DNA of 64,000 nt from Pseudonocardia broussonetiae (lineage in GTDB: Bacteria; Actinomycetota; Actinomycetes; Mycobacteriales; Pseudonocardiaceae), in the NCBI RefSeq assembly GCF_013155125.1, contig NZ_CP053564.1:7075501-7139500 (forward strand), read 5' to 3'. Positions within the stretch are counted from its first letter, which is position 1; each line of letters begins with the position of its first letter. This document shows, one piece after another, positions 2,917 through 53,448 of this stretch. Under the pieces are notes generated by a model that was not told the origin of the DNA, searched no databases, and saw only the letters and a list, made by a program, of their open reading frames with translations. The translations under genes were made by a program, and so were the position numbers.

Positions 2917-4500
2917 TCAGCTCAGCAGGGCGTCGACGTAGGCGGCGGGCTCGAACGGCGCCAGGTCGTCGGGGCCCTCGCCGAGCCCGACGAGCTTCAC
3001 CGGAACCCCGAGCTCCCGCTGGACGCGGAAGACGATGCCGCCCTTGGCGGTGCCGTCGAGCTTGGTCAGGACGATGCCGGTGACCTTGACGACGTCGCCG
3101 AACACCCGCGCCTGCGTCAGCCCGTTCTGGCCCGTGGTGGCGTCGAGGACGAGGAGCACCTCGTCGACCTCGGCCTGGCGCGACACGACCCGCTTCACCT
3201 TGTCGAGCTCGTCCATCAGGCCGGTCTTGGTGTGCAGCCGGCCCGCGGTGTCGAGCAGCACCACGTCGGCGCCCTCGCCGGCGCCGCGCTTGACGGCGTC
3301 GAACGCGACGCTCGCCGGGTCGGCCCCCTCGGCGCCGCGCACGACGGTCGCCCCGGCCCGCTCGCCCCAGGTGACGAGCTGCTCGGCGGCGGCGGCGCGG
3401 AACGTGTCGGCCGCGCCGAGCACCACCCGGTGCCCGCCCGCGACGAGCACCCGTGCCAGCTTGCCGGTGGTCGTGGTCTTGCCGGTGCCGTTGACGCCGA
3501 CGACGAGCAGCACCGCGGGCCGCCCGTCGTGGGGCAGCGCGCGGACGGAGCGGTCGAGCTCGGGGCGCAGGGCCTCGGTGAGGACGTCCTTGAGCAGCTG
3601 GCGGGCCTGCTCGGCGGTGCGGACGCCGCGGGCCGCCAGCTCGGTGCGGAGCCGGTCGATCAGCTCGGCGGTGGTCTCGGGGCCGAGGTCGGCCTGCAGG
3701 AGGGTGGCCTCGACGTCCTCCCACGACTCCTCGTCCAGCTCCCCCGCGCCGAGCAGGCCCAGCAGTCCCTGGCCGAAGCCGGAGCGGGAGCGGGCGAGGC
3801 GGCCGCGGAGGCGCTCGAGCCGGCCGCCGGGTGGGGCGATCTCCTCGGTGGGGGTCGGGGCCGGGGTGGTGGGGGCCGGGGTCGTGTCGGTCGGGGGTGT
3901 GGTCGGTGTCGTGGTCGGGGGTGTCGCGGTTGGTGTCGCCGTCGGGGGCGTCGCCGTCGGTGTCGCCGTCGGGGGCGTCGCCGTCGGGGCGCTCGGCGCG
4001 GTCGGGGCCGAGCCGTTGGTGGACGGGACCGGGGTCGCCGTCGGGGGCCGCTCGGTCGTCCGGGGCGGTTCGGTCGTGGGGGCCGAGGGGGCCGTCGGAG
4101 CCGTCGGAGCCGACGGGGCCGTCGGGGCCGACGACGTCCCCAGCGGCGGCATGGGGGTGGCCGTCGTCGGCTCGGCGTCGACGGGGCGCTCCGCCTCGGG
4201 GCGGGTGGTGGTGTCGAGCCCGGGGGTGACGTCGGCCGGGGGCGCGGTGGCGGCCGGCGGCTCGACCGGCGGCGCGGACGGGGTGGCAGCACCGGTGCCG
4301 GGGGCGAACGAGAACCCGCCGCCGGCCTGGTAGGTGCCACCGCGCGGCTTGGGCTTGGCGGCCTCGTCGGCGCGCTCCAGCTCCTCGGCCTGGCGCAGGC
4401 TGATGCGGCGGCGGTTGCGGAGCACCAGCCCCACGACGAGGGCGATGAGCACGACCGCAGCCACGACCGCGACGACGATCCACAGGGTCTCCGGGGTCAC
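2917..4500 (-). CDS. ftsY: Signal recognition particle receptor FtsY
   Basis: The SRP receptor GTPase that docks Ffh-ribosome complexes at the membrane. The 527 residues comprise an N-terminal membrane helix (about 5-28), an unusually long Pro/Thr/Ala-rich low-complexity linker (about 60-215, with repeated TATPP-type units), then the NG domain. The G-motifs are clear: [10 protein letters not shown] at about 335, [10 protein letters not shown] (insertion box), DTAGR near 417 and [10 protein letters not shown] near 489. The start next to a hydrophobic segment ([20 protein letters not shown]) supports a membrane-anchored form as in other actinobacteria. It lies downstream of smc with a 467-bp repeat-bearing gap. 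Confidence 0.96.
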
Positions 4501-4777: not shown

Positions 4778-4834
4778 GTTGCAGGAAGGCCACCTTCACG
4801 CCACGAACCGTCCACAAGGTGGCCTTGCTGCAAC
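4778..4834. repeat. 57-bp palindromic repeat, family A (copy 1)
   Basis: A stem-loop of 24 + 9 + 24 nt. The outer 19 nt, GTTGCAGGAAGGCCACCTT, pair with 4816-4834 with one mismatch. Same length and outer sequence as copies at 6787-6843 (inside smc) and 31688-31744. This copy is intergenic, upstream of ftsY and downstream of smc. The inner stem has diverged more than in the other two copies. Confidence 0.85.
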
Positions 4835-4967: not shown

Positions 4968-7900
4968 TCAGCTCGCCGGCCTCAACCGCTGGCTGATCAC
5001 CGTCGTGATCCCGTCCCCCCGCATCGCCACGCCGTACAGCGCGTCGGCGACCTCCATCGTCGGCTTCTGGTGCGTGATCACGATGAGCTGGCTGGTGGCG
5101 CGCAGCTCCTCCATCAGGCTGATCAGGCGCCGGAGGTTGACGTCGTCGAGGGCGGCCTCGATCTCGTCGAGGATGTAGAACGGCGAGGGGCGGGCGCGGA
5201 AGATCGCGACCAGCAGGGCCATGGCCGTCAGCGACCGCTCCCCGCCCGACAGCAGCGACAGCCGCTTGACCTTCTTGCCCGGCGGGCGGGCCTCGACCTC
5301 GACCCCGGTGGTCAGCATGTCCTCGGGGTCGGTGAGCACGAGCCGGCCCTCGCCGCCGGGGAACAGGGTCTCGAAGACCACCGTGAACTCGCGCGCCACG
5401 TCCTCGTACGCCTGCGCGAACACCTCGAGGATCTTGTCGTCGACCTCGCGGACGACGGTGAGCAGGTCGCGGCGGGTGTTCTTGAGGTCCTCGAGCTGCG
5501 TCGACAGGAACCGGTAGCGCTCCTCCAGCGCCGCGAACTCCTCCAGCGCGAGCGGGTTGACCCGGCCCAGCAGCGCCAGGTCCTTCTCCGCGCGGGCCGC
5601 CCGGCGCTCCTGCGTGGCGCGGTCGTAGGGCATGGCGGGCGGGGCGGTGACGTCCTCGCCCCGCTCGCGCGCCGCCTCGTACTCCGCGACCTCGGCGAGC
5701 GAGGCGGGCACCGGGGCGTCCGGCCCGTACTCGGCGACGAGGTCCTCGACGCCCAGGCCGTGGTCGGCCAGCACCTTCTCCGTGACCTGCTCGAGGCGCA
5801 GCCGCGACTGCGCGCGCAGCACCTCGTCGCGGTGCACGGCGTCGGTCAGCTTCTCCATCAGCGCGGTGAGGCGCTGCGCGGTGAGCCGGACCTCGCCGAG
5901 CTCGCGCTCGCGCGCGTCGCGGGCGGCGGCGGCCGCGTCGCGCTCGGCCGCGGCGACGGCCAGGGACTGCGCGATCCGCGCGCACGCCACCTCCCCCGCC
6001 TCGACGACGAGCGCGGCCACCGCGGCCCCGCGCTCCCGCGCCTCCCGGGCGGCCGCGGCGCGCTCGCGGGCCATCCGCTCCGACGACGCCTGCCGCCGCA
6101 GCGACTCCGCCCGCCCCGAGATCGCCCGCGCCCGCTCCTCGGCGGTGCGCAGCGCGAGGCGGGCGTCGACCTCCGACGAGCGGGCCGTCTCGACGGCGTC
6201 GGCGGCGGCGTCGCGCACCTCGGTGTCGGGCTCGTCGTCGACCGGCTCGTCCTCGGCGACGGCGAGCTGCTGCTCGGCGGCCTCCAGGGCGAGGAGGGCG
6301 TCGGAGCGCCGGGACTCGACGGCGTCGCGCCGCTCGCGCAGCCGCTGCGCCTCGGCCGCGGCCGAGCGGACGGCCTGCTCCATCCGTCCGAGCTGCGCCG
6401 ACGCCGCCGACCGACGCTGCTCCGCCGCGTTCTGCGCCCGCCGGGCCGCCTCGACCTCGGCCTGGCGCGCCGACTCCTCGGCCCGCGCGCCCTCCAGCGC
6501 CGGGCGCAGGCGGGTCAGCTCCTCCTCGACGCCGTCGCGGGCCTGCGCGGCCTCGGTGACGGCGGCCTGGACGTCGAGCGCGCTGGTCGCCGTGCCCGAT
6601 CCCCCGGACGCGCGGGCGGCGCCGAGCACGTCGCCCTCGGCGGTGACGGCGGTGAGCGCGGGGTCGGCGGCGACCACGGCCGCGGCGTCGTCGAGGGAGT
6701 CGACGGCGACGACCCCGGAGAGCAGCCGGCGGACGGCGGAGGCGACGGGGCCGTCGGGCGCGACCCCCTCGGCCACCCAGCGCGCCGTTGCAGGAAAGCC
6801 ACTTTCCTGCAACGAGGTTGCGTGAACGTGGCTTTCCTGCAACTCGGCGGACCCCACCACCAGCACCGCCCGCCCCGCATCCCGGGCCCGCAGCAGCCGC
6901 AGCGCCCCCACCGCCGCCCCCGCGTCCGCCACCGCCACCGCGTCGGCCAGCTCCCCCAGCACCGCCGCGACGGCCGTCCGCGCCCACGGCTCCACCGTCA
7001 GCAGCCCGGGGACCGCGCCCAGCACCCCGTCCTCCCCCAACAGCGACGCCGAGCCGTCCTTGCGCGCCAGCCCCACCGACAGCGCGTCGACCCGCGCCCG
7101 CCAGTGCGCCCGCTGCTTCTCCGCCTCCCGCTCCTGCGCCACCAGGTCGGCCACCCGCGCGCGGGCCGCGTCGAGCCCTTCGACGGCGGCGACCCGGCGC
7201 TCCTCCAGCTCGGCGGGCACGTCCCCGGAGTCGACGGCGTCGCCCGCCTCCTCCAGCTCCGAGCGCGCCGACGCCGTGCGGTCCTCGGCCTCGGCCAGCG
7301 CGTCGGACAGGCGCTCGATCTCGTCGGCCGTGGCCGCTGCGGTGCTGCGCATCGCCTCCGCGCGCCCGGCGAGGGTGGCCAGCCCGGCGCGGCGGTCGGC
7401 CAGCGCGCGGACCGCGGCCCGGTGCGCGCGCTCCGCGGCGGCGAGGGTGCGCTCGTGCTCGGCGCGGGTCTCCAGGATCTCGGCGAGCGCGGCCCGGGCC
7501 TCGGTGACGGCCCCGACCAGCTCGTCCTCCTGCTCGGCGACGGCCTCGGCCTCGGCCTCGAGCTGGTCGGGGTCGCGCCCGGGGGTGCGCTCCTCGGCCG
7601 AGCCCGCGAGGTGGCGGCCGCGCTCCTGGGCGAGGCGGACGGTGCCCGCGAGGCGCTCGGCCAGCGCGGAGAGGCGGTACCAGGTGTCCTGCGCGGCGGC
7701 CAGGAGCGGCGCGTCGGCGGCCAGCGCCGTCTCCAGCCGCTCCTGCTCCACGCGCGCCACGGACAGCTGCTCCTCGACCTCCGCGCGCCGCGCCCGCGCC
7801 GCGGACTCGTCGGCCTCCTCGCGGGCGAGGGAGTCGCGCAGGGTCACGAGGTCGTCGGCGGCCAGGCGCAGCCGGGAGTCGCGCAGGTCGGCCTGCACGC

Positions 7901-8549
7901 TCTGCGCGCGGCGCGCGATCTCGGCCTGGCGCCCGAGCGGCTTGAGCTGGCGGCGCAGCTCGGCGGTGAGGTCGGTCAGGCGCGTGAGGTTGGCCTGCAT
8001 CGCGTCGAGCTTGCGGAGGGCCTTCTCCTTGCGCTTGCGGTGCTTGAGGACGCCCGCGGCCTCCTCGATGTAGGCGCGGCGGTCCTCGGGCTTGCTCTGC
8101 AGCACCGAGTCGAGCTGCCCCTGCCCGACGATGACGTGCATCTCCCGGCCGATGCCGGAGTCGCTCAGCAGCTCCTGGATGTCGAGCAGCCGGCACGAGG
8201 AGCCGTTGATCTCGTACTCGCCCGCGCCGTCGCGGAACATCCGGCGCGTGATCGACACCTCGGAGTACTCGATCGGCAGCGCCCCGTCGGAGTTGTCGAT
8301 CGTCAGCGTCACCTCGGCGCGGCCCAGCGGCGCCCGCCCGGACGTGCCGGCGAAGATGACGTCCTCCATCTTGCCGCCGCGCAGCGCCTTCGCGCCCTGC
8401 TCGCCCAACACCCAGCTGATCGCGTCGACGACGTTGGACTTGCCCGAGCCGTTCGGCCCCACGACGCAGGTGATGCCGGGTTCGAGGCGCAGCGTCGTCG
8501 CCGAGGCGAAGGACTTGAAGCCCTTCAGCGTCAGGCTCTTGAGGTGCAC
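4968..8549 (-). CDS. smc: Chromosome segregation/condensation protein SMC
   Basis: A 1193-residue SMC ATPase that organises replicated origins with ScpA/ScpB. Walker A is at 31-38 (GPNGSGKSN) and the C-terminal signature is LSGGERSLTAMALL. Two very long coiled coils, rich in Ala, Glu and Arg, flank a hinge around residues 500-660. Residues about 570-588 of the hinge (LQESHVHATSLQESGFPAT) are encoded by a 57-bp palindromic repeat, an in-frame insertion. The GTG start has an AGGAGAG ribosome site, and a TACTCT -10-like hexamer lies at 8577-8582 on the minus strand. The neighbours acyP and ftsY match the mycobacterial order. Confidence 0.97.
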   Translation of the reverse strand: MHLKSLTLKGFKSFASATTLRLEPGITCVVGPNGSGKSNVVDAISWVLGEQGAKALRGGKMEDVIFAGTSGRAPLGRAEVTLTIDNSDGALPIEYSEVSITRRMFRDGAGEYEINGSSCRLLDIQELLSDSGIGREMHVIVGQGQLDSVLQSKPEDRRAYIEEAAGVLKHRKRKEKALRKLDAMQANLTRLTDLTAELRRQLKPLGRQAEIARRAQSVQADLRDSRLRLAADDLVTLRDSLAREEADESAARARRAEVEEQLSVARVEQERLETALAADAPLLAAAQDTWYRLSALAERLAGTVRLAQERGRHLAGSAEERTPGRDPDQLEAEAEAVAEQEDELVGAVTEARAALAEILETRAEHERTLAAAERAHRAAVRALADRRAGLATLAGRAEAMRSTAAATADEIERLSDALAEAEDRTASARSELEEAGDAVDSGDVPAELEERRVAAVEGLDAARARVADLVAQEREAEKQRAHWRARVDALSVGLARKDGSASLLGEDGVLGAVPGLLTVEPWARTAVAAVLGELADAVAVADAGAAVGALRLLRARDAGRAVLVVGSAELQESHVHATSLQESGFPATARWVAEGVAPDGPVASAVRRLLSGVVAVDSLDDAAAVVAADPALTAVTAEGDVLGAARASGGSGTATSALDVQAAVTEAAQARDGVEEELTRLRPALEGARAEESARQAEVEAARRAQNAAEQRRSAASAQLGRMEQAVRSAAAEAQRLRERRDAVESRRSDALLALEAAEQQLAVAEDEPVDDEPDTEVRDAAADAVETARSSEVDARLALRTAEERARAISGRAESLRRQASSERMARERAAAAREARERGAAVAALVVEAGEVACARIAQSLAVAAAERDAAAAARDARERELGEVRLTAQRLTALMEKLTDAVHRDEVLRAQSRLRLEQVTEKVLADHGLGVEDLVAEYGPDAPVPASLAEVAEYEAARERGEDVTAPPAMPYDRATQERRAARAEKDLALLGRVNPLALEEFAALEERYRFLSTQLEDLKNTRRDLLTVVREVDDKILEVFAQAYEDVAREFTVVFETLFPGGEGRLVLTDPEDMLTTGVEVEARPPGKKVKRLSLLSGGERSLTAMALLVAIFRARPSPFYILDEIEAALDDVNLRRLISLMEELRATSQLIVITHQKPTMEVADALYGVAMRGDGITTVISQRLRPAS
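6787..6843. repeat. 57-bp palindromic repeat, family A (copy 2), in frame within smc
   Basis: Same 24 + 9 + 24 stem-loop as copies 1 and 3, with outer arm GTTGCAGGAAAGCCAC. Its first 27 bp are also a perfect inverted repeat (12-3-12). It is exactly 57 bp, 19 codons, so it does not disturb the smc frame, and it adds LQESHVHATSLQESGFPAT to the hinge. The interior resembles copy 3, so these two look more recently related than copy 1. Confidence 0.9.
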
Positions 8550-22659: not shown

Positions 22660-22674
22660 GCGGCTTCGCCGCCC

Positions 22675-22714
22675 GTGAGCGGCGATCGTGGCCAGGGCCA
22701 CGATCGCCGCTCAC
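22675..22714. repeat. Perfect 19-bp inverted repeat between pyc and rsmD
   Basis: GTGAGCGGCGATCGTGGCC (22675-22693) and its exact complement (22696-22714) with a 2-nt spacer. It lies in the 61-bp gap after pyc and before the rsmD start. There is no U-tract. Could be a terminator-like hairpin or another dispersed palindrome; no second copy is seen in the window. Confidence 0.85.
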
Positions 22715-22720
22715 GAGGGG

Positions 22721-31687: not shown

Positions 31688-31744
31688 GTTGCAGGAAAGC
31701 CACGTTCATGCAACCAGGTGGCGTGAACGTGGCTTTCCTGCAAC
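31688..31744. repeat. 57-bp palindromic repeat, family A (copy 3)
   Basis: 24-nt arms (GTTGCAGGAAAGCCACGTTC + ATGC against the complement, one mismatch) around the loop AACCAGGTG. It is nearly identical in the outer arms to the copy inside smc. It lies in the convergent gap between rpmB and ung, 17 bp before the ung stop. Confidence 0.88.
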
Positions 31745-52267: not shown

Positions 52268-53448
52268 ACAGCCCGCTGACGCACCCCGCACCCACCACCA
52301 CGCTGCGGCCCACCGACCTCGCCGGCGTCCGCGACGCCGTGCGCGACACCCCTGGCCGGATCGCCGTCGCCGGTGCCGGCTCGGCCGCGGGCTGGGCCGG
52401 CGCGCTCGAGCCCGTCGACGCCGTCCTCGACGTGTCCGGCCTGTCCGGCGTGATCACCCACAACCCCGGCGACATGACGGTGTCCGCGCACGCCGGCACG
52501 CCGCTGCGCGCGCTGGTCGAGGAGCTGTCCGAGCACGGCCAGCACGTCTGCATCGACGCCGCCCGGATCGCCGACGGCGCCACGCTCGGCGGGCTCGTCG
52601 CCACCGGTGACGCCGGCCCGGCGGCGCTGGTGCACGGGACGCTGCGCGACCTCGTCATCGGCGTCACCGTCGTGCTCGCCGACGCCACCGTGGCCCGCAG
52701 CGGCGGGCACGTCATCAAGAACGTCGCCGGGTACGACCTGGCCAAGCTGCTGCACGGCTCGCACGGCACGCTCGGGGTGATCGCCGAGGTCGTGCTGCGG
52801 CTGCACCCGGTGCCGCAGCGCACCGCGACGCTCGTCGTCGACGCCCCGCTGGCGCGCGCCGCGGAGATCGCCGCCCGCGTGCTGGAGGGCCCGTTCGAGC
52901 CGGCCGCGCTGGAGTGGGTCAGCGACGGCAGCGGGCGGCTGCTCGTGCGCGTCGAGGGCACCGACGAGGCGCTCCCGGCGCGGGTGTCGCGGCTGCGGGA
53001 GGTGCTGGGCGGGGCCTCGGCCACCGACATCGTCTCGGGCGAACGGCACTCTCACCCGACCACGTCGGGCGAGAGTGCCGTTCGCTCCGAGGATCCCTGG
53101 CTGCGCCACGCCGAGCTCACCCGCGGCACCCCGGACGCCGCCGTGCTGCGGATCGGGGCGAAGCCGTCGGTGCTGCCCGGGCTGGTGTCCGAGCTCGCGC
53201 CCGCCGCCGCGACGGTCGGGCTGGGCACCGGCGTCGCCACGCTCTCGCTGGCGCCCGACGCCGTGGCCGACGCGCACCGCCGCGTGCACGCCGTCGGGGG
53301 CACGTCCCAGCTGCGCGCCCGCCCGCCGGGCGCCGACGCCCCCGCCTGGGGCCCGCCGCCGTCGGCCCTGCCGGTGCTGCAGGCCCTCAAGCACGCGCTC
53401 GACCCGGACGGCCGCTTCGGTCCGGGCCGCTTCTCCCCCTGGATGTGA
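52264..53448 (+). CDS. glcE: Glycolate oxidase subunit GlcE, with palindrome insertion
   Basis: 394-residue second FAD-domain subunit. The signature GGHVIKNVAGYDLAKLLHGS is intact, followed by HGTLGVIAEVVLRLHPVPQ. Residues about 259-275 (GERHSHPTTSGESAVRS) are encoded by a 47-bp palindrome and look like an in-frame insertion in a variable loop. GTG start within the GTGA overlap with glcD; glcF starts 4 bp after the stop. Confidence 0.93.
   Translation: MNSPLTHPAPTTTLRPTDLAGVRDAVRDTPGRIAVAGAGSAAGWAGALEPVDAVLDVSGLSGVITHNPGDMTVSAHAGTPLRALVEELSEHGQHVCIDAARIADGATLGGLVATGDAGPAALVHGTLRDLVIGVTVVLADATVARSGGHVIKNVAGYDLAKLLHGSHGTLGVIAEVVLRLHPVPQRTATLVVDAPLARAAEIAARVLEGPFEPAALEWVSDGSGRLLVRVEGTDEALPARVSRLREVLGGASATDIVSGERHSHPTTSGESAVRSEDPWLRHAELTRGTPDAAVLRIGAKPSVLPGLVSELAPAAATVGLGTGVATLSLAPDAVADAHRRVHAVGGTSQLRARPPGADAPAWGPPPSALPVLQALKHALDPDGRFGPGRFSPWM
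53039..53085. repeat. 47-bp palindrome inside glcE
   Basis: 22-nt arms (GCGAACGGCACTCTC + ACCCGAC, 53039-53060, and its complement 53064-53085) with one mismatch and the centre CAC. It lies in frame in glcE. It is unrelated in sequence to the 57-bp family. Confidence 0.9.

Follow-up and report, generated by a model that had tools for sequence, protein, structure and literature searches.

Why a palindrome that recurs in the genome should lie in frame within the hinge of Smc, and whether the peptide or the nucleic acid is preserved there, are the questions raised by the 64,000-nt stretch of DNA analysed here (the window). Three 57-bp palindromes beginning at 4778, 6787 and 31688, which had been listed in the initial annotation, were confirmed by both position and folding. 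As single-stranded DNA they folded with z scores of -6.9, -8.5 and -11.6, respectively, and for each of the three copies 0 of 200 shuffles folded as well as the palindrome. The architecture given in that annotation (24-nt arms around a 9-nt centre) is corrected here to arms of 27 nt and a centre of 3 nt. A 15-base arm motif, with up to 3 mismatches allowed, was matched 10 times in the window, whereas 100 shuffles gave 1.19 matches on average and never more than 5.

The palindrome in the Smc hinge

The copy at 6787, in which 24 of 27 pairs are Watson-Crick, was found to lie in frame in the hinge, as had been claimed. It starts at the third base of a codon and adds a peptide of 19 residues, which begins at residue 570 of Smc; the GA tag of the oriented element (described below) corresponds to TC at 6844-6845. 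The close relative G023 has a counterpart of 56 bp for the second copy in Table 1, and no copy was found at the G023 site corresponding to the third. Genes in the window were called by a codon-usage finder trained on 9660 codons from long open reading frames of the window; because the gene models come from this purpose-made finder, start-codon positions and short genes should be regarded as uncertain. A scan of the window against Rfam gave no match at the gathering threshold. A further intergenic palindrome, CGTGAGCGGCGATCG...CGATCGCCGCTCACG, is located at 22669-22720, with similar sequences in G023.

Table 1. Features of the window, and in-frame copies of the element at other loci of the same genome
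Feature	Position in window	Strand	Remarks
smc gene	4968..8549	-	ORF of 1193 aa; matches SMC_N and SMC_hinge
Smc hinge piece (residues 480-680)	6510..7112	-	search query and structure model; insert at piece residues 91-109
Palindromic element in smc (hinge loop)	6787..6843	-	57 bp, in frame, codes LQESHVHATSLQESGFPAT
Second copy	4778..4834	.	gap between smc and the downstream predicted gene 2917-4500 (minus)
Third copy	31688..31744	.	convergent predicted genes on both sides; 16 bp from one stop codon
Second-family palindrome GCGAACGGC...GCCGTTCGC	53039..53085	.	47 bp
In-frame copy, L041			PF03746, LamB/YcsF
In-frame copy, L042			2-oxoacid dehydrogenase acyltransferase
In-frame copy, L045			ABC ATPase
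In-frame copy, L064			biotin carrier domain protein
In-frame copy, L066			class I/II aminotransferase
In-frame copy, L067			FAD-binding protein, presumably NadB
In-frame copy, L073			GntR plus aminotransferase, which we take to be of MocR type

Among 24 aligned relatives from named actinobacteria, the hinge loop varies in length at the place of the insert. Matches to the hinge piece were obtained in 57 of the 62 genus genomes, and the comparison is based on 30 hinge loci from these genomes, all of which were examined. The palindrome is present in 17 of the 30, with 19 to 25 of its 27 pairs, and in 12 of the 13 hinges without the motif the best 57-base palindrome has 16 to 18 pairs, which corresponds to background. 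In the remaining hinge, that of G060, the same loop is occupied in frame by another palindrome, which reads NERPFRPLGVDERAVRSA. This palindrome (L218) belongs to the second family of Table 1, which is about 47 bp long and dispersed in the genus, with copies in the window, at L229, L282 and L308 (G023), and at L353 (a further G060 copy).

Two checks suggested in the initial annotation had different outcomes. Alignment did not reveal a clean insertion between perfectly alignable flanks in either smc or nadB, and a length-variable loop or linker was found instead. The modelling of the hinge agreed with an insert placed in a loop. The hinge piece was predicted by AlphaFold (mean pLDDT of 85.8) with a fold that matches known structures of SMC hinges, 5h69 being the best (E 1.7e-10), and the insert is predicted as a low-confidence loop (residues 91-100, pLDDT 57) followed by a short helix (residues 101-104). 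In G052, halves of the Smc hinge match are located at contig ends (C30 and C76) flanking the insert, as if the assembly had broken at the palindrome.

A dispersed family and its genomic positions

A genome-wide search for the arm, also proposed initially, revealed a large family in the own genome (G000). With at most 2 mismatches allowed, a 16-base arm gave 81 forward and 74 reverse matches (155), compared with 4 and 10 (14) for the reversed control pattern. From 57 fetched loci, 76 rows were tabulated, of which 7, representing chance hits and a related direct repeat of 30 bp, were dropped, leaving at least 69 palindromic elements. The 30-bp units of this direct repeat, GTGGCAGTAAAGCCACTCCACTGTCAC, share the core of the 57-bp element and were observed at L044 (1596-1652 and 1765-1821) and in L037 near 3145. 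Two main subtypes of the element could be distinguished, AAAGCCACG/CGTGGCTTT and AAGGCCACC/GGTGGCCTT, and the arm types switch together.

An alignment of 64 of the 69 elements was made over 57 columns, five being omitted because their ends differ. In these copies, 86.9% of cells are paired and the covariation score is 0.210, compared with 0.117 in shuffles, 0 of 500 of which reached it. There is no excess of pairs changed on both sides (11 vs 11.1 in shuffles), and further pair types are fewer than in shuffles (27 vs 31), as expected because the family has few subtypes. Two short hairpins in place of one long hairpin were rejected as an alternative fold, with 69.4% of cells paired and covariation no better than in shuffles.

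With regard to gene context, tandem gaps contain 33 copies and convergent gaps 20, with 1 additional overlapping copy in each of these two classes, divergent gaps contain 5, 8 copies are inside predicted genes and 1 is undecided. Window gaps with a length of 57 bp or more number 15 between tandem genes, 8 between divergent genes and 3 between convergent genes. A distance of at most 30 bp from a stop codon was found for 37 of the 55 copies in tandem or convergent gaps (18 of the 21 convergent ones), and 19 of 34 tandem copies lie within 30 bp behind the upstream stop, compared with 11.3 expected (P = 0.0012); the median 3' distance is 24 bp. On contig C1, the region 3.77-5.32 Mb contains 3 of the 69 tabulated copies vs about 15 expected, a region that was picked post hoc (largest gap, P = 0.033).

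The left flanks of the elements are C-rich and the right flanks G-rich. GA is present on the left only in 20 elements, TC on the right only in 26, both in 4 and neither in 19 (Fisher P = 0.0019), giving a one-end tag with the consensus C(C/G)GA, which is not a GTAG or CGTC tetranucleotide. Based on these flanks and on the GA at one end, the repeat unit is therefore likely asymmetric, with a length of about 60 bp. A replication-strand bias of the tag was also considered and dropped, as the chromosomal pattern tracked gene orientation.

According to our codon-usage gene models, 8 predicted genes have an in-frame copy, including smc. Six of the 8 copies share one phase, in which they encode LQESHVxATxLxESGFPAT or a near form, and the other 2 use the next phase. 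The copies fall in linkers, tails or loops, and all 7 copies in genes other than smc are outside the best Pfam domain stretches. The PF03746 gene is 72 bp longer than its G023 counterpart, in frame. The copy in the biotin-carrier gene is present in both G000 and G023 and was found in 0 of 7 other loci scanned, among which only G060 aligned across the linker. Orthologues without the element exist for nadB (23 of 30) and for smc (12 of 30 hinge loci without an above-background palindrome). The open frames and the positions outside domains suggest that the host gene products may stay functional.

Nucleic acid and peptide in the coding copies

When the smc copies of the 17 genomes are aligned, 86.5% of cells are paired, and changes on both sides were found in 15 of 27 pairs. 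Double changes affect 58 cells vs 26.1 in shuffles, and none of 500 shuffles reached this number; the score for covariation is 0.298, compared with 0.111 in shuffles and at most 0.098 in slid controls. The slid controls and the codon test carry more weight here, because related sequences may outperform shuffles without any structure.

In the codon test, pairwise identity in the outer stem of the smc copies is 0.67, 0.98 and 0.945 at codon positions 1, 2 and 3, and the corresponding values are 0.84, 0.89 and 0.61 in the upstream flank and 0.81, 0.83 and 0.65 in the downstream flank (93 aligned codons each), so that the ranking in the stem, with third above first positions, is opposite to that of the flanking codons. 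GC3 is 0.48 in the smc element vs 0.96 in both flanks, and 4 of 18 third positions in the element are invariant A/T vs 0 of 186 in the flanks. A similar pattern was observed for the 7 carriers in nadB, with 0.67, 0.92 and 0.94 in the outer stem, 0.93, 0.95 and 0.75 in one flank and 0.93, 0.94 and 0.71 in the other, and a GC3 of 0.43 in the element vs 0.98-0.99 in the flanks. Because third positions are more conserved than first positions in smc, and this is repeated in nadB, nucleic acid rather than peptide is conserved, and the hairpin, not the peptide, seems to be preserved in the coding copies. The peptide itself might have been the selected item, as a functional segment of the hinge, which would be in line with its recurrence in 17 species; however, the greater variation at first than at third codon positions of the outer stem in both genes, as well as the presence of the same peptide in unrelated proteins, make this explanation highly improbable.

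Spread and upkeep of the element, and comparable known systems

Across most of the compared window region, G023 is approximately 92-95% identical to G000. Among the 69 own sites, 52 could be compared with G023, in which the element is present at 36 and absent at 16; the proportion of 36/52 overstates sharing because some G023 stretches had been picked around G023 copies. Identity in 31 intergenic copies common to both genomes is 96.4% in the outer stem (a value inflated because the stem served to recognise the copies), 79.7% in the inner part and 71.6% in the 40-bp flanks. The subtype differs between the two genomes at the same site in L038, L069 and L077, and at L075 and L080 G023 retains remnants that suggest loss of the element. 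The initial idea of a mobile or amplifying element that had colonised an essential gene is thus retained in part: presence does differ between relatives, but the smc copy, found in 17 of 30 hinge loci, is not a private insertion.

The refuting condition named in the initial annotation, the same hinge residues in genomes that lack the repeat elsewhere, was not observed: all 17 genomes with a hinge palindrome carry additional copies, with 47 to at least 90 model rows each (both strands counted). In these 17 genomes, the smc copy scores 0.772 against the top-scoring copy of its own genome vs 0.712 against those of the others (0 of 20000 permutations), a comparison that uses one top-scoring copy per genome and to which relatedness contributes. 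The own-genome copy is closer to the smc copy than the nearest relative's smc copy is in 11 of 17 genomes and less close in 6; in G022, G034 and G035 the values are 0.91-0.93 for the own-genome copy vs 0.60-0.79 for the nearest relative's smc copy.

The best explanation, to which we assign a probability of about 0.5, is that these elements are a family of REP/RPE kind native to Pseudonocardia and its relatives, with hairpin-borne spread and overwriting of resident copies. Copies would spread as hairpins, in the form of an asymmetric unit tagged at one end, by means of a non-Y1 recombinase or a replication-coupled template switch, and would persist where hairpins are harmless, i.e., downstream of stop codons and within linkers of proteins. 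Copies already in place, including coding ones, would be repeatedly overwritten or corrected to the current hairpin sequence of the genome, and it is proposed that under such recurrent overwriting the encoded peptide would follow the DNA. Overwriting is supported by the different subtypes at L038, L069 and L077 and by the smc copies of G022, G034 and G035 that match their own genome. On the other hand, the searches for a mobiliser and for target-site duplications were both negative, some differences, those at L075 and L080, resemble losses, overwriting alone would also homogenise the inner part, which varies, and the own-genome copy loses to the nearest relative's in 6 of 17 cases. The best-supported view is that overwriting, selection or a combination of the two makes the copies change in concert as hairpins. 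More tentatively, smc, an essential gene, and metabolic genes may carry a clade-wide hairpin that is selected or rewritten as nucleic acid and dictates the protein, with a putative host or mobile reader, and the Smc loop may be a place where palindromes of more than one family land repeatedly.

Selection by the host could account for much of the same evidence if purifying selection kept each copy for a factor that binds the RNA or extruded DNA hairpin, with the core CAGnAAnGCCACnTT. Column variability of the 64 own copies agrees with that of the 17 smc orthologues (Spearman 0.81), the outer stem of the shared intergenic copies is more conserved than their 40-bp flanks, and the stem is retained by paired changes. 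However, that stem identity is biased upward, presence differs at 16 of the 52 sites compared between two close relatives, no binding factor is known, and 20 of 62 genus genomes have no match to the element model, which implies that the site is not generally needed; we consider this explanation rather unlikely. Paired changes could also arise without selection, by quasipalindrome correction alone, in which one arm is rewritten from the other through template switching, a mechanism described for bacteria (PMC6649704). The invariant core columns, the invariant A/T third positions and the sequence shared between copies would then be unexplained, and the unequal change of core and inner columns argues against it as the sole cause, so its chance appears slim.

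The position of many copies, 10-30 bp after stop codons and between convergent genes, together with a long and stable stem, would also suit ordinary transcription terminators that share sequence by chance, with the in-gene copies being accidental. Such terminators would be expected neither as in-frame copies in 8 or more predicted genes nor with an smc copy kept in 17 species, and they do not require the common sequence core. Moreover, a T run beyond the stem, the criterion for an intrinsic terminator, was not found (means of 0.9 and 0.8 T per 8 nt past either end), and the orientation of the tag is independent of transcription (13 vs 8, P = 0.38, not significant); this explanation is improbable. 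Placement at gene ends and the one-end tag are also REP-like and could point to mobilisation by RAYT, a Y1 transposase. However, PF01797 (Y1 transposase) has 0 matches in the own genome and is present in 5 of 62 genus genomes (57 are without it), including G007, which has zero element matches, and the tag C(C/G)GA is neither GTAG nor CGTC; the RAYT explanation is thus largely refuted and barely tenable. No transposase family was found in 10 of 11 predicted genes between clustered copies. Target-site duplications, for which a check had been suggested, were not detected, as flanking direct repeats of 3-8 bp are not above shuffled flanks (n = 69), and the copies did not qualify as classical MITEs on this count. 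At L051, GTGA is present at both ends of an 86-bp difference, and a deletion would leave the same.

The resemblance to RPEs, the protein-coding palindromes of Rickettsia, noted in the initial annotation, holds in several respects: the elements are repeated and palindromic, their length is a multiple of three, and they add a near-same peptide to linkers or loops of unrelated genes. RPEs are described as palindromes of about 150 bp inserted in frame in unrelated genes, with a near-same added peptide that is reported to be tolerated (PMC10969869), and as losing repeat identity over time (PMC6649704). By description, the two share repeated in-frame palindromes and a recurrent peptide, whereas the elements described here are 57 bp long, belong to another phylum and have kept the stem with paired changes over 17 species. 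GTAG/CGTC REPs are described as having a tag at one end and stems of 5-13 bp, being located within about 20 bp of 3' ends between convergent or tandem genes, with some of them inside coding sequences, among others those of DNA repair genes, and the CGTC type as lacking a dedicated transposase (PMC3733652); Actinobacteria are missing from the list of phyla and the text of that report. The one-end tag, the 3'-end placement and the copies in genes are shared with these REPs, and the absence of a dedicated transposase (PF01797, own genome) with the CGTC type, but the stem of 27 bp, the tag C(C/G)GA and the phylum differ. Palindromes inside protein genes whose arms evolve together have been reported from nematomorph mitochondria, where they are organellar, perfect repeats of up to 284 bp (PMC6649704). 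Co-evolution of both arms within protein genes is common to both, whereas the present elements form a dispersed repeat family at gene ends.

No report of such an element in Actinobacteria was found in the literature listings and abstracts searched. While RPE/REP-like palindromes are a known kind, what appears to be new is the conservation of the smc and nadB copies at the nucleic-acid level. If this is true, protein-coding palindromes would reach beyond Rickettsia and relatives, and the stronger conservation of third than of first codon positions could serve as a genomic signature for non-protein elements hidden in genes. The many copies, species and site comparisons would then allow the spread and persistence of such elements to be studied, with a tractable test system in a non-pathogenic actinomycete.

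The distribution of the element was also investigated on a wider scale. The element model matches 42 of 62 genus genomes and, in a sample of 150 family genomes that includes the own genus, 68 genomes and 26 of 46 genera. The genus was taken to be Pseudonocardia because its Smc loci are the closest among the named ones. Four named Pseudonocardia Smc loci of up to 24 kb each (L119-L122) gave 0 matches, which speaks against genus-wide presence and agrees with the 20 match-free genomes of the genus. Among 80 named Smc loci, clear matches were obtained only in L128 (Prauserella endophytica), which contains three elements. Other genera have their own element variants (L320-L327). Related palindromes of 55-59 bp with the core AAGGCCACCTT/AAGGTGGCCTT were observed in other genera of the family, at 690, 18327 and 22835 of L128 and in L325 and L326.
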